A stretch of DNA of 63,397 bases from Deltaproteobacteria bacterium (GTDB lineage Bacteria > Bdellovibrionota > FAC87 > UBA2466), in assembly GCA_900299195.1 (NCBI GenBank), contig OMIX01000083.1:1-63397 (forward strand). The letters run 5' to 3'. The notes below the pieces were generated by a model. The model was not told where the DNA came from. It searched no databases and was given only the letters and a program-made list of their open reading frames with translations. This document shows, one piece after another, positions 21,048 through 53,640 of the stretch (its first letter is position 1; each line of letters opens with the position of its first letter). Made by a program: the position numbers and the translations under genes.

Positions 21048-22580
21048 ATGATTACCTTTTCATGGATTGAAATCCTATTATCGTTATTTTCTTGTTTATC
21101 AGTGTTTCTAACCCCCACGGTGGGATCGCTGAATTATCACATGGGGTTTTACTCAAATCCCTACTTTCCCATCGCTGCAGCATCCACCCTAGGATTTTTA
21201 CTTTGGCTCCTGCTTCTTGTCTCTCGATTCGCTCTCCAAGCTAAAAAAAGGGAAATGATTGACTTTGTTTTCGTAAGTTTATGGATGGTGATCTTTAGTT
21301 TCTTTTTCTTTAAACACTCTCCTTTAGGCAGATACCATCCTCGGATCACTGAGGGAGTGACTCTGTTTTTAGCTTTTGTTTTGGCTAGCTATCTCATTCG
21401 GTGGTTAAATCGAAAGGACCTAGTGCGATTCATCGGGTTGCTCTCCCTAGCTTTTCTAAGCGCAGATTTTATTCAATTTAGAAAGCTAACTGTGATGGAA
21501 CCCCGTCCCGCAGTATCTGCAACCCCATCAGCAGCCCCATCCCCTTCCATAGTTCACATTGTTTTAGATAAATTCAGCTATGACAACGCTGCTCTTAACC
21601 ATCCTCAATTTGAAAAAAAGTCTCTAGAGCTAGCTAAAAAACATCAACTTACTTTTCACACCCAACATTATTCTAATTATCACGCAACCGCTTTCTCAGT
21701 TCCGGATTTTTTAAAAGATCAAAGAGACCTGGATGCCTCAACAGGATTTAGAGAACTTAACTCCAATACTCTGTTTCACTATTTCTTTAAAAAGGGGTAC
21801 GACCTTTACTTGTATGGCCATTATTTACCCTACTGTTTGAGATTTAAAGCTCTCGCTAAACACTGCCAAATCAATAGCCGAGAGGAAGCCAAAGCAGTCT
21901 TTGAGTTTTCAAAATGGGCAGAGCTCTATTTAACTGAATTTTCTTCTTCGATTAACAGGATTTTCAACTCTGAGAACTCTTATCAGTTCCTACAACGCTA
22001 TCCCGAAAACGCGCTCCAAATGTTTGACGACTATCGGCAAGATTTTAAAAAGTGGGCCCAAAGTTCACATCCTTTTTATGCTTATCTTCATGTGGTTGTT
22101 CCGCATGATCCTTTTCGATTAAGCCAAGACTGCGAACTTTTACCTCCCATAAAGAAAGGAATGGAAATTGAAGAAGTACGTGGAAGGTTACAAAGTCAAA
22201 GTTTGTGTGTGCTGAAACAATTAGACATTGTGCTAACTTCAATCAAAAGCCAATATCCGGGCCCCTTGAAAATTTTAATTCATTCGGACCATGGCATGTT
22301 CATGAGAGATAATAAGTCCGAGAAAAAAGAAAACACCAAAGACGCGGAATTAAACCAGCTATCGCACATTCCTGCTTGGGTCAGTCAAGAAAACAGTCAA
22401 AGCCCTTTACGATCTGATTCGCTGACTTCTAATAGCGAGGTGGGAGCTTTCCTCAAAGGGGAAACCCCAACTCTCAAAAGTCAAACAGACATCCATTTTT
22501 TTGCAGGCTGCGTTAATAAGCGAGACCCCTACAAAAAAAATAGATTCGGCCCTTGGGCATCCCCCAACCCCAAATCTTAA
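21048..22580 (+). CDS. Membrane-anchored sulfatase-fold protein
   Basis: Four to five N-terminal hydrophobic helices (to about residue 150) precede an alkaline phosphatase/sulfatase-type domain. That domain has IVHIVLDKFSYD, where the first metal-binding Asp is expected, VVPHDPF, and ILIHSDHGMF with the conserved DHG. The architecture resembles LTA synthase or phosphoethanolamine transferases. The region where the Thr/Ser/Cys nucleophile should lie is not clear, so the reaction is undetermined. It starts 12 bases after tex stops. The neighbouring exosortase pair suggests a link to surface polymer modification, but this is only context. Confidence 0.65.
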   Translation: MITFSWIEILLSLFSCLSVFLTPTVGSLNYHMGFYSNPYFPIAAASTLGFLLWLLLLVSRFALQAKKREMIDFVFVSLWMVIFSFFFFKHSPLGRYHPRITEGVTLFLAFVLASYLIRWLNRKDLVRFIGLLSLAFLSADFIQFRKLTVMEPRPAVSATPSAAPSPSIVHIVLDKFSYDNAALNHPQFEKKSLELAKKHQLTFHTQHYSNYHATAFSVPDFLKDQRDLDASTGFRELNSNTLFHYFFKKGYDLYLYGHYLPYCLRFKALAKHCQINSREEAKAVFEFSKWAELYLTEFSSSINRIFNSENSYQFLQRYPENALQMFDDYRQDFKKWAQSSHPFYAYLHVVVPHDPFRLSQDCELLPPIKKGMEIEEVRGRLQSQSLCVLKQLDIVLTSIKSQYPGPLKILIHSDHGMFMRDNKSEKKENTKDAELNQLSHIPAWVSQENSQSPLRSDSLTSNSEVGAFLKGETPTLKSQTDIHFFAGCVNKRDPYKKNRFGPWASPNPKS

Positions 22581-22631: not shown

Positions 22632-22949
22632 ATGAAGCTTAGTTACTTTTTTCGACTTTTTTTACTTCCTCTCTATTTTCTTTTCATGACTCAGTTTCAG
22701 GGGAAGATCTTAGCTGAAAGCTCGGGTCCACCACCACCCATCAGCTCTGGAGTATGTGCATGCACTGGTGGCGCGGTTGCTGCATGCTCGTATCCGACTT
22801 GTTGTTGCCAAAATTGCCCCCCTAGCCTATGCGGTGGTGGCACGGGTGGTGGCGGCGGCGTCCCCGAACTTCCAGGCGGGAACCTTTATCTGCTCATTGG
22901 AGGGGCTAGTGGCGCACTATTTTGGGTGAGAAGATTCTTTAAAAGATAA
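22632..22949 (+). CDS. Small Cys/Gly-rich secreted protein with PEP-CTERM-like sorting tail
   Basis: The 105-residue protein has an N-terminal signal peptide, then eight cysteines between residues 42 and 67 (CAC, C, CCC, C, C). A Gly hinge precedes VPELP at residues 77-81, a hydrophobic helix (about 84-98) and a basic end (RRFFKR). That tripartite tail is the layout recognised by exosortases. The 3' end overlaps the convergent exosortase gene by 33 bases, making it the obvious dedicated substrate. The mature product would be a tiny disulfide-rich peptide. The tail reading is inference from pattern; VPELP is not a canonical VPEP. Confidence 0.72.
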   Translation: MKLSYFFRLFLLPLYFLFMTQFQGKILAESSGPPPPISSGVCACTGGAVAACSYPTCCCQNCPPSLCGGGTGGGGGVPELPGGNLYLLIGGASGALFWVRRFFKR

Positions 22950-23846
22950 AAATAAGTAAAAAGCCCCAAAAAACAAAACCAATCCCACCCAATAAACTCC
23001 CCAAGCGTATTGACTATGAAAAAGTTCGACCTGCTCGTGTACGGTCAAAAGGCTTTGAGTTCGGGCAAAGCTTTTATTTCCCCAATAAATCAGTGATCCA
23101 ATCCTAAAAAAATTAAGAAAGGTCATGTAAAAAACTCCAAAAACAGCTACCGTCCAGCGCATGAAAGTAGAAACTTGTTTTCCATCAAATATCAAAATCA
23201 CTCCCCAAAAGGCAAAAAAGAGGCATATTCCTTCAAAGCCACTGCACCCCTGCAAAATATGAATTTTACCCCAAGGCATCTTTAAAATCGGCCCGAAGGG
23301 ATGAAATTGCACCTTCATCGAATGAAGACCAGGAATAAAATTAAAATGAGAAAGTATTTTTGAAACATAGGGGCTCAAAAAGCGCCAAAGTGAAGTGTTA
23401 AAAAGGCGATAAACCCAAAATGCAGTTCCCGCCATAAAGGCTGGACCCCAATCTGATTTTTCTTTTAAAACTCGGGCCCCAAAACCTCGAAAACTCACCA
23501 CCGAAAAGAAACTTGAGAAAAAAACGGCTCCGGCCCAAAAGGCCCATATCAACCTGGGCCAACCATAAACGCTGCTTTTTAAATAAAAAGTGAATGCCAC
23601 AAAACCCACAAGCAATAGAAAGTGCATTAACCAAAGTTCCTTTTTAGGGTTCCGTGGAATACGCTCTGCCAAATCCCATTTCACATAAAGAAGAGTCAGA
23701 ACGATCGAAGGAACGATCAAAACGGCCGGTTCGATTCGAACCGAAAAATTGATATTCACTAGGGATCTTAAAATAGCCACTTCCAACAGAGGAAGTATCC
23801 AACCCAAATGAACCCAGGACGGAAATTGGATGTGTTTTATTTTCAT
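22917..23846 (-). CDS. Exosortase/archaeosortase-family cysteine protease-transpeptidase
   Basis: The 309-residue polytopic membrane protein has about eight helices and the three invariant exosortase residues in order: Cys201 in ILQGCSGFEG, Arg248 in FLNFFRIGSL and His277 in ELFHSQYAWGVYW. Exosortases cut C-terminal PEP-CTERM-type signals at the cytoplasmic membrane and probably join the protein to an acceptor. The only candidate substrate in the window is the overlapping convergent gene. It lacks any fused extra domain, so the subtype is not assigned. Confidence 0.85.
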   Translation of the reverse strand: MKIKHIQFPSWVHLGWILPLLEVAILRSLVNINFSVRIEPAVLIVPSIVLTLLYVKWDLAERIPRNPKKELWLMHFLLLVGFVAFTFYLKSSVYGWPRLIWAFWAGAVFFSSFFSVVSFRGFGARVLKEKSDWGPAFMAGTAFWVYRLFNTSLWRFLSPYVSKILSHFNFIPGLHSMKVQFHPFGPILKMPWGKIHILQGCSGFEGICLFFAFWGVILIFDGKQVSTFMRWTVAVFGVFYMTFLNFFRIGSLIYWGNKSFARTQSLLTVHEQVELFHSQYAWGVYWVGLVLFFGAFYLFLSFKESSHPK

Positions 23847-24014: not shown

Positions 24015-24146
24015 ACCGGTTCGCGATTGAACGCCCGGTCATGGAAATAGTGTCAGCCTACAGGGCTCTCCTAGGGGGCCCGTAGGTATTCGGTTTTAAG
24101 GAAATACACCTGAAGCGAGCTCTCCTAGGGGGCTCGCTTTCTTTTT
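24015..24146 (+). ncRNA. Candidate structured RNA with twin hairpins sharing one loop
   Basis: Three consecutive stem-loops lie in the gap before the nhaR-type gene. The first (24015-24039) has ACCGG/CCGGT ends. The second (24057-24086) pairs CCTAC(A)GGGC with GCCCGTAGG. The third (24113-24139) pairs AAGCGAGC with GCTCGCTT. The last two have the same 11-base loop TCTCCTAGGGG although their stems differ. The third runs into TTTCTTTTT, so it doubles as a terminator. This looks like a small RNA or leader; no known riboswitch consensus was recognised. Confidence 0.6.
24113..24146 (+). terminator. Rho-independent terminator (third hairpin)
   Basis: A perfect 8-bp GC-rich stem AAGCGAGC/GCTCGCTT with an 11-base loop is followed by TTTCTTTTT. 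It sits upstream of, not after, the nearest plus-strand gene. That implies a short transcript that ends here, or attenuation of the downstream gene. Confidence 0.75.
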
Positions 24147-25545: not shown

Positions 25546-26199
25546 ATGAAAAACCTATTACCTGGATTAAGAAAGTTTTCCGAGTCTGAGTTCAAAAACA
25601 AACAGTCACTTTTTGAAACTTTATCGAAAGGTCAAAGTCCACACACGCTGCTGATTACCTGCTCTGATTCCAGAATCGACCCCAATCTGATCACACAAAC
25701 CGAGCCCGGGGAGATTTTTGTGGTCAGAAATGCAGGAAACATCGTACCTCCCTTTGGTTCGTCGTTAGGAGGAGAAGAAGCGGCCATTGAGTTTGCTATT
25801 GATGGTTTAAAAGTAACCAATGTCGTAGTTTGTGGCCATTCCCATTGTGGCGCGATGGCGGGCTTGATGGACAGGGTAAACATTGAATCTCTCCCTTCCG
25901 TTAAGAAATGGTTAGGCCATGCCCAAGCGACTCGGAGAAGAATTGAAGCGACACCCGAGGGAAAAAACACCGATTTAAAAAAGGTGATTGAAGAGAATGT
26001 GTTGGTTCAAGCCGATAACTTGAAAACTCATCCAGCAGTATCGGCTGCGCTAAGGCAGGGACGTATTCGTATTTTCGGTTGGATGTACCATTTCGAAAAT
26101 GGTTCGGTCACTGTTTATGATCCCAAAAACAAAACGTTCATTCTTTCTGCCGAAGTTAAAAACGAGCTTGCAGAGGATATGACTCGGTTTGCTCTCTAA
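25546..26199 (+). CDS. Beta-class carbonic anhydrase
   Basis: This zinc enzyme interconverts CO2 and bicarbonate. The CxDxR motif (C39, D41, R43 in ITCSDSRIDP) and HxxC motif (H98, C101 in GHSHCGAM) give the zinc ligands. RNAGN and the following GSSLGGEEAAIEFAI match the family. Length 217 aa is standard. AGAAGGAG precedes the ATG. It lies 26 bases after the HPF-like gene and 14 bases before the bestrophin-like gene, so the three form one operon. Confidence 0.95.
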   Translation: MKNLLPGLRKFSESEFKNKQSLFETLSKGQSPHTLLITCSDSRIDPNLITQTEPGEIFVVRNAGNIVPPFGSSLGGEEAAIEFAIDGLKVTNVVVCGHSHCGAMAGLMDRVNIESLPSVKKWLGHAQATRRRIEATPEGKNTDLKKVIEENVLVQADNLKTHPAVSAALRQGRIRIFGWMYHFENGSVTVYDPKNKTFILSAEVKNELAEDMTRFAL

Positions 26200-26213
26200 A
26201 CGGTGAGGTTGAT

Positions 26214-27149
26214 ATGTTGAGCTTAACCAAAACAGTCTGGAAAGAAACAGGGTTGAGAAAACCTCTCGACCCTGTGGTTCTCACGAATCGAGGTGAAGTT
26301 AAAAATTTCTTTAGAACGGCTTTGGCGTGGAAGGGAACGGTTACGCCAAGAGTGATTCCCCGAGTTTTAATCACTGCGGTGTTTTCGGTGCTCGTGGTTT
26401 GGTGGGTTGAGACCTTTCCAGTTTTTACTCTACCCATGACCCCCTTTGAATACTCGGGAGCAGTGTTGGGGCTTCTTTTAGTTCTGAGAGTGAATGCGGG
26501 GCTAGACCGCTGGTGGGAAGCCAGAAAAATCTGGGGAAGTATCGTGAACCAAAGCCGAAACCTAGCCTTGGCGGGGTACGGCTATAGCAATATCAAAACA
26601 GGACCTGCTTCAAAATTCTTAAGATGGGTAGCAGCTTGGCCTCACATCATGAGAGAGTCCTTACGAAAAGAAAAAAACTTAATTGAAGTGACTCATCTGT
26701 TAGGTGATGTAGAGGCCGAAAAGGTACGCCGTTCGGTTCACATGCCCACGTACGCGGGCTCTCGCATGATTGAATATGTAAGAGAGCTTCGAAAAAACGG
26801 GCTAGATGATTTTGCTTTTGCTCAAGTAGAGAGAGAACGGGCTCTTTTGATTGATGCGATTGGGGCATGCGAAAGAATTCGAAACACGCCAATCCCTTTT
26901 GTACTCGCGGTCAAAACTCGAAGATTCATATTATTGTTTCTTCTTTTGCTCCCCTTTGGACTCACGGCTAAGGTCGACTGGTTCACGCCGCTCATTGTGG
27001 CTTTGGTTTCTTATCCGTTATTTTCTTTAGATGAAATTGGGGCAGAACTTCAAAATCCATTTTCCCCAAGAAACTTAAGCCATCTTCCTCTAAATGACAT
27101 TTGTAACACTATTGAGAGCAACGTGATGAGTTTAGAGAAAAGTGAATAG
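26214..27149 (+). CDS. Bestrophin-like anion channel (UPF0187 family)
   Basis: The 311-residue protein has the bestrophin pattern: an N-terminal helix pair (ITAVFSVLVVWWVETFPVF), then EYSGAVLGLLLVLRVNAGLDRWWEARKIWGSIVNQSRNLA, and near the end FPLFSLDEIGAELQNPF-like sequence (YPLFSLDEIGAELQNPFSPR). Bestrophins conduct chloride and bicarbonate. Directly downstream of a carbonic anhydrase, a role in bicarbonate flux or CO2/pH balance is a reasonable inference. A strong hairpin follows the gene. Confidence 0.88.
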   Translation: MLSLTKTVWKETGLRKPLDPVVLTNRGEVKNFFRTALAWKGTVTPRVIPRVLITAVFSVLVVWWVETFPVFTLPMTPFEYSGAVLGLLLVLRVNAGLDRWWEARKIWGSIVNQSRNLALAGYGYSNIKTGPASKFLRWVAAWPHIMRESLRKEKNLIEVTHLLGDVEAEKVRRSVHMPTYAGSRMIEYVRELRKNGLDDFAFAQVERERALLIDAIGACERIRNTPIPFVLAVKTRRFILLFLLLLPFGLTAKVDWFTPLIVALVSYPLFSLDEIGAELQNPFSPRNLSHLPLNDICNTIESNVMSLEKSE

Positions 27150-52560: not shown

Positions 52561-53640
52561 TTAGTTTTTTGAGTTACCCCACCCGACAGGGTTTAGATCT
52601 ATTTTAATGACGTCTCCCATCGGACAAGGTGTGGGAGTCTTACAAGTAGTGTAGAGATCGGCATCAAAATCTGGAATGAATTGAATACCATCGGGCATAG
52701 TACTCCAGACAACAAAAGCCGGTTTCGGATCGCCAAATCCGTTCTTGTCTCCCGGCTTTGTTTTACACTGGTCTGCAATTAGTGCGAGCGTGGACTGGCC
52801 GGGTTTACAAATGTCATTTTCAACAAAATCTTTAATTTCCTTCACGGGACAAGGGTTGAATGGATATCTCGCTGGGCTTCCCGCATCCTTTCTTGGCCGA
52901 TAATCGTCTTTCACGCAGAGTTGGTTACCCGCATTATCGCACACTGGTTTTGTAGGATTTATAAGTTGACATGATAGCACAAGCAAAGACGACAATATTC
53001 TATTGCATTGGGCCTCTTGTTCCGGTCCCAATGTTCCTAAAGCACTCCACCACTCGGCCACTTTACACACTTGTGCAGTCGTAAAATCACTGCTCGCCTC
53101 TCCCAAACCGATGTTTCCGGCTACAGTCTCCGCGATTTGCTCGCAATACTTCCCCGCTTGATTCCACACCCAACCCCAATGGTTACAGTGTGCTTCAGAG
53201 AGAGAATTTCCAGTTTGATTTTTGCACATGGGCTTGTCTTTATTTTGTGGCTTGTCACAGAAACTTTGGGCCAAGGCCCTGCACTGATTGCGGTCCAGTA
53301 CAACTCCTTGTAAGTTCGCATTTTCACAACAGGCAACGGCTGCCTCAAAATGGGGCTGCCCTGCACACGGACCTGCTTTTTTACTAGGGGTAGGCTCGGG
53401 GGTAACTTCCGGCTGAGTCATTGCTCTCAACAGACCTAAATGTTTGACGGCTCCTAAAATTGTGTCAGTAGTGCTGTCTCCAAAAATTTTCACACTGAGT
53501 TGGAAAAAAACGTCCTCTGGTTCTACGGAAGTACCGTTTCCACCGGTGCAACCAAACTGGGTAAAAGCGACTAAAACCAGTAATAGCCCGGGTAACTTAA
53601 ATAATCTGTTGTTCAAAAGTTTTAATTTAAAAATGCTCAT
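52561..53640 (-). CDS. Cys-rich lipoprotein of unknown function
   Basis: The 359-residue protein has a lipoprotein signal (LLVLVAFTQFGC), a Pro/Glu/Thr linker (near residue 80) and a domain with about two dozen cysteines, including CC and C-x(2-8)-C pairs. Disulfide-rich outer-membrane-anchored or surface protein. No family recognised. Confidence 0.65.
   Translation of the reverse strand: MSIFKLKLLNNRLFKLPGLLLVLVAFTQFGCTGGNGTSVEPEDVFFQLSVKIFGDSTTDTILGAVKHLGLLRAMTQPEVTPEPTPSKKAGPCAGQPHFEAAVACCENANLQGVVLDRNQCRALAQSFCDKPQNKDKPMCKNQTGNSLSEAHCNHWGWVWNQAGKYCEQIAETVAGNIGLGEASSDFTTAQVCKVAEWWSALGTLGPEQEAQCNRILSSLLVLSCQLINPTKPVCDNAGNQLCVKDDYRPRKDAGSPARYPFNPCPVKEIKDFVENDICKPGQSTLALIADQCKTKPGDKNGFGDPKPAFVVWSTMPDGIQFIPDFDADLYTTCKTPTPCPMGDVIKIDLNPVGWGNSKN

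Follow-up and report, generated by a model that had tools for sequence, protein, structure and literature searches.

The locus

The window, meaning the whole 63,397-nucleotide stretch analysed here, is contig 83 of a 2.83-Mb assembly that is 97% complete. A plasmid search gave no match. Genus-mates of this genome, which include UBA2466 (Pseudobdellovibrionaceae according to NCBI), are Bdellovibrionales MAGs. At 22632–23846 a gene for a small protein and a gene for an exosortase meet tail to tail with a 33-bp overlap, the convergent arrangement that an earlier note on this DNA had described, and a sulfatase-family gene lies upstream. The features are listed below; G005 is a genus-mate and G014 belongs to another family of the same order.

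21048–22580, plus strand: membrane-bound sulfatase/alkaline-phosphatase superfamily protein, 510 aa (PF00884, 35.9 bits, cut-off 25)
22632–22949, plus strand: predicted dedicated substrate, 105 aa (open reading frame; selection on the tail; adjacent pair kept in G005 and G014)
22632–22715, plus strand: likely N-terminal signal peptide, residues 1–28 (ending KILA/ES; residues 3–20 hydrophobic; cleavage position predicted)
22755–22832, plus strand: Cys-rich core, 8 Cys in 26 residues (42–67), read from the sequence and lacking in the G005 and G014 partners
22833–22859, plus strand: Gly-rich linker, residues 68–76, read from the sequence
22860–22946, plus strand: putative tripartite C-terminal sorting signal, VPELP/helix/RRFFKR, residues 77–105 (tail identity to relatives; single in the genome)
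22917–22949, both strands: stretch shared by the two convergent coding regions, 33 bp, from the ORF coordinates
22920–23846, minus strand, stop codon 22917–22919: exosortase/archaeosortase family membrane protein, 309 aa (TIGR04178; hydrophobic segments; orthologous core in relatives)
23244–23246, minus strand: Cys201 codon, predicted nucleophile, invariant among related exosortases
23103–23105, minus strand: Arg248 codon, at least 90% conserved in the same alignment
23016–23018, minus strand: His277 codon, at least 90% conserved in the same alignment

Beyond the pair, two near-identical GCTCTCCTAGGGGGC(C/T)CG hairpins were seen 54 nt apart at 24065–24136, with T-rich sequence after the second; this region folds better than shuffled sequences (z −2.6) and had no Rfam match. 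A carbonic anhydrase gene is followed directly by a bestrophin-family channel gene at 25546–27149.

The exosortase

The 309-aa protein was matched by TIGR04178 at 31.3 bits (cut-off 23), and on this profile it is assigned to the exosortase/archaeosortase superfamily. About 7–8 hydrophobic segments were counted (7 hydropathy peaks), in keeping with the superfamily norm of about eight helices. An AlphaFold model built from five sequences had many long helices at low confidence (pLDDT 48.5) and was left out of fold searches. Sequence searches of the PDB with the exosortase, the Cys domain and the sulfatase-family protein gave nothing convincing.

Cys201, Arg248 and His277 had been proposed in family order, with loss of the set in orthologues named as grounds for abandoning the idea. 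The residues were correctly identified, and the set is conserved across an alignment of 16 related exosortases, some rows of which are cut by contig ends. TIGR04178 matched 15 of the 16 family exosortases. Subtype models (Xrt, Art, cyanoexosortase) were run against the window protein and none passed, TIGR04178 being the only model at E ≤0.01 (NCBIfam 20); a named subtype was dropped accordingly, as the note had anticipated. The Pfam exosortase model PF09721 and TIGR02602 did not match the window protein either. In the tree, a branch with 100/97 support separates the window exosortase group from the EpsH-type enzymes found in the phylum. By analogy with characterised enzymes, the exosortase is predicted to cleave a C-terminally tagged protein.

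EpsH-type exosortases in other families of the phylum (L060–L064, L056) likewise adjoin a short protein with a GAPELPG-like tail, and also a conserved protein whose C-terminus is DPLLQW(I/L)(F/Y)P.

The small protein

All the elements first described for the 105-aa protein (8 Cys, Gly hinge, VPELP, helix and RRFFKR end) are present, and after the Gly run it reads VPELPGGNLYLLIGGASGALFWVRRFFKR. The predicted mature part comprises residues 29–81, about 53 residues, close to the 50 or so first estimated. At 7.6% Cys it ranks highest among window ORFs of at least 90 aa (median 0.9%); second in Cys-richness is a 359-aa ORF at 52561–53640 (minus strand) with 5.3%. The window substrate was not matched by CTERM models, and assignment of the tail to PEP-CTERM or another CTERM class was dropped because no model exceeded its cut-off.

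Being short, overlapping and of unusual composition, the reading frame could be an artefact opposite the exosortase end. The overlap is merely 33 bp, however, and the tail recurs beside orthologues of the enzyme. Comparison of the tail codons of the window gene with those of its G005 orthologue shows 17 synonymous and 4 non-synonymous changes (4, 4 and 17 at the first, second and third positions), and the non-overlapping tail codons hold 15 third-position against 4 first- or second-position changes. Since the changes are mostly synonymous, the ORF is a real gene, and the pattern indicates that its tail is under purifying selection. A spurious frame, refuted by these codons, is given a negligible probability.

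Orthologous pairs and the sulfatase-family neighbour

Related genomes were searched for the same convergent pair. It recurs in G005 in the same order and with the same 33-bp overlap, the partner being 79 aa long, Ser/Thr-rich and free of Cys. The reading frame of the G005 exosortase copy is lost near a contig end, no more than about 160 nt away, where damage and misassembly cannot be told apart. In G014 a 58-aa ORF with APEIP...RRFFK is divergent from a related exosortase, and the window and G014 enzymes group together in the tree (97/94 support, with a long-branch warning). The window tail is 86% identical to that of G005 and 44% identical to that of G014. In G001 contig 17 ends within the exosortase orthologue, of which the N-terminal 214 residues are present, and contig 10 ends within the upstream sulfatase; their orientations fit the order of genes in the window if the assembly has a gap where the pair should be. 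G005 carries two exosortases, each beside its own tail type matching partners in other species.

The G014 partner (L053 1904–2077) has only about a dozen residues between its signal peptide and APEIP, so there is almost no payload.

By these comparisons the tail, the pairing and the catalytic residues are conserved across orthologues and the exported body is not. The Cys-rich body is thus not a conserved element of the window orthologue group, because the G005 and G014 partners have no Cys.

The sulfatase-family gene was found only in G000, G001 and G005 among 15 genomes, these being the genus members with the window exosortase type, and it lies upstream of the small gene at a distance of 51 bp in the window and 45 bp in G005. 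Its product may be a third component of the system. The small protein could then be an accessory or anchor for this enzyme or for an envelope polymer, with exosortase cleavage regulating the complex, a reading favoured by the restricted occurrence and the close spacing. The G014 pair lacks the sulfatase, though, the neighbours of other family pairs are unrelated, and the co-occurrence rests on three versus three genomes, which is few. We consider it doubtful. The alkaline-phosphatase superfamily includes phosphoethanolamine transferases. The product of the Haloferax archaeosortase relies on genes for the synthesis of ethanolamine lipids (PMC7157517). It would be speculative to give the sulfatase-family protein a part in supplying or modifying the acceptor.

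One enzyme and one predicted target in the genome

Two profile searches found a single exosortase in the window genome, and a single close match to the window tail was present. The earlier note had held that many other proteins with VPELP-type tails would speak against a dedicated system. A tail census was run over the whole genome with the pattern GYNCCNGARNTNCCN, which encodes [VA]PE[LIMVF]P; one of the 15 sites, that of the window, was followed by a helix and a basic end. A profile of 13 tail sequences (A6) matched only the window tail strongly. The best whole-genome match to the PEP-CTERM model TIGR02595 was below cut-off and lay elsewhere than the window substrate.

The exosortase might nevertheless serve further targets with different tails. 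Tails are diverse in the family, the A6 profile missed five divergent ones in relatives that were found by other searches, so that a very different second tail in the window genome could be overlooked, and the assembly is 97% complete. Against this stand the census, the lack of any PEP-CTERM match over cut-off, and the lack of a ten-Cys family member (described below) elsewhere in the genome. Undetected targets are therefore judged unlikely. One enzyme and what is probably its only target lie side by side, as expected of a dedicated system. The proposal of a single dedicated substrate stands in that sense; the arrangement is not unique, since such pairs recur across the family.

Distribution in the family

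TIGR04178 was present in 21 of 369 genomes of the phylum. The survey covered 15 genomes from the family and order of the window genome, and its counts are based on mechanical ORF calls with judgement of tails. About 19 exosortases of the group (contig-cut copies included) and 19 candidate substrates were identified. Fifteen of the enzymes are adjacent to or fused with a substrate, three are cut by contig ends and one (G008) has no adjacent partner. Several pairs occur in some genomes, up to three in each.

In G008 a 772-aa spermidine-synthase-like membrane protein (L045 1063–3381) lies between an exosortase and its Cys-rich partner.

Among the substrates compared, 15 of 17 are Cys-rich. Within the genus, type 2 substrates form a group with VPELPSWFGPFFLAT tails and 6–7 Cys; other substrates are 125–142 aa long with 11–14 Cys, and several share a ten-Cys framework. 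A profile of this framework (A7) found four further proteins, one of which (G010) adjoins an exosortase missed by TIGR04178 at the threshold used; two others lie where a contig stops, as does the exosortase of the genome concerned. The profile had no match anywhere in the window genome, and membership of the window substrate, whose Cys pattern differs, was dropped. Two substrates matched a Pfam domain of trypanosome surface proteins, which was judged to reflect Cys composition. The idea of a processed, disulfide-rich peptide thus holds up for the family in the Cys content of most substrates; for the window protein itself, whose two closest tail relatives have no Cys, sequence comparison leaves it weak.

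Family tails include FPEVP, VSEMP, IAEFP and APQFPEG. Two paralogous ORFs of G009 on different contigs (497 and 504 aa; L052 6888–8381 and L122 2691–4205) combine exosortase, extra hydrophobic segment, Cys-rich domain and APQFxEGW-helix-basic tail in one protein. A mirror-tree comparison of tails and enzymes over 14 pairs gave r 0.79 (P 0.0001), falling to r 0.02 (P 0.47) after two tight clusters were collapsed; it was set aside, as it adds nothing beyond those clusters.

Beside or divergent from the exosortase at L040–L043, L048 and L050 (type 2 and related) is a gene for a lipoprotein-like protein of about 85–100 aa, often with a large secreted protein; these are possible further components. 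An exosortase remnant in G012 (L123 4274–4945) lacks the catalytic Cys and Arg and has no evident neighbouring substrate.

Taken together, these pairs suggest a Bdellovibrionales-family group whose enzymes nearly all have a single private target next to them, usually small and disulfide-rich.

Proposed mechanism

The best explanation, which we hold to be probable, is a dedicated exosortase system that sorts a private, adjacent small protein to an envelope acceptor. The steps are modelled on published schemes of Sec export, tail retention, thioester formation and transfer to an amine or lipid (PMC1569441, PMC7157517). Sec would export the small protein by means of its N-terminal signal peptide, and the C-terminal helix and basic tail would keep it in the inner membrane. 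VPELP-helix-RRFFKR would be recognised by the exosortase next door, whose Cys201, acting with Arg248 and His277, would form a thioester near the PELP motif. Transpeptidation would then pass the mature domain, a short one of about 50 residues with 8 Cys, to an envelope acceptor, probably lipid-linked, so that it ends at the cell surface. Payloads would be free to change, and each enzyme type would keep its tail.

Alternatively, exosortase and signal peptidase could release a short peptide, disulfide-rich or linear, that acts outside the cell as a signal or antimicrobial. The tiny mature domains (about 53 residues in the window and about 13 in G014), the eight Cys with a Gly linker, and a variable payload on a constant tail would suit such a product. 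Characterised relatives are thought to keep their substrates attached to the envelope (PMC11980579, PMC7157517), however, and genes for export, immunity or a receptor are not seen next to the window pair. Release is accordingly given a low probability, and sorting to an envelope acceptor is preferred.

Relation to known systems

A sorting enzyme with one target has been defined as a dedicated system, with adjacency in single-target genomes (Haft and Varghese, 2011; PMC3237569). The window pair, with one enzyme and one adjacent tripartite-tail target, is an exosortase case of such a system. The example detailed there is rhombosortase/GlyGly-CTERM; here the enzyme is of the exosortase family, the target is small and usually Cys-rich, and a genome has up to three pairs. 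With exosortase/PEP-CTERM (EpsH, TIGR02602/PF09721; Haft, 2006, PMC1569441) the window pair shares a Cys...Arg...His membrane protein and a tail composed of a short Pro-Glu-containing motif, helix and basic end. It differs in that the enzyme has no PF09721 or TIGR02602 match, there is no obvious exopolysaccharide cluster, the targets are one rather than many, and the motif is PELP rather than PEP. Archaeosortase A/PGF-CTERM belongs to the same superfamily and is modelled as forming a thioester that is then attacked by a lipid amine; its signature motif and host are different, and it has several substrates including the S-layer glycoprotein (PMC7157517). TraA, with Cys-rich repeats and MYXO-CTERM (PMC3325183), is likewise a Cys-rich secreted protein with a tripartite sorting tail. 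Its system uses myxosortase, an unrelated protease type (PMC11980579), TraA is large, substrates number dozens per genome, and the MYXO-CTERM tail has an invariant Cys, unlike the window system.

Searches of the open-access literature found nothing on exosortase with Bdellovibrio or on PEP-CTERM with Bdellovibrionota. One-enzyme/one-target sorting is already described; the lineage-specific, Cys-rich, multi-pair form appears to be undescribed in that literature. It is set apart from known dedicated systems by an unnamed exosortase group, Cys-rich targets as the norm, several private pairs per genome, and fusions.

Most exosortases have many targets, which makes their chemistry hard to study. 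With one small neighbouring target per enzyme, each enzyme can be matched to a single recognition motif and a single product, and the natural enzyme-substrate fusions are ready-made test constructs. More tentatively, and with the balance somewhat against it, the private pairs may be a lineage-specific platform for display or release of interchangeable, mostly disulfide-rich domains, including, in one lineage or more, a self-sorting enzyme-substrate polyprotein; with a conserved enzyme-tail pair and exchanged payloads, this would resemble a modular means of surface presentation or peptide maturation. Should the payloads prove to be disulfide domains displayed at the surface, they would be an unrecognised envelope feature of Bdellovibrionales relatives.
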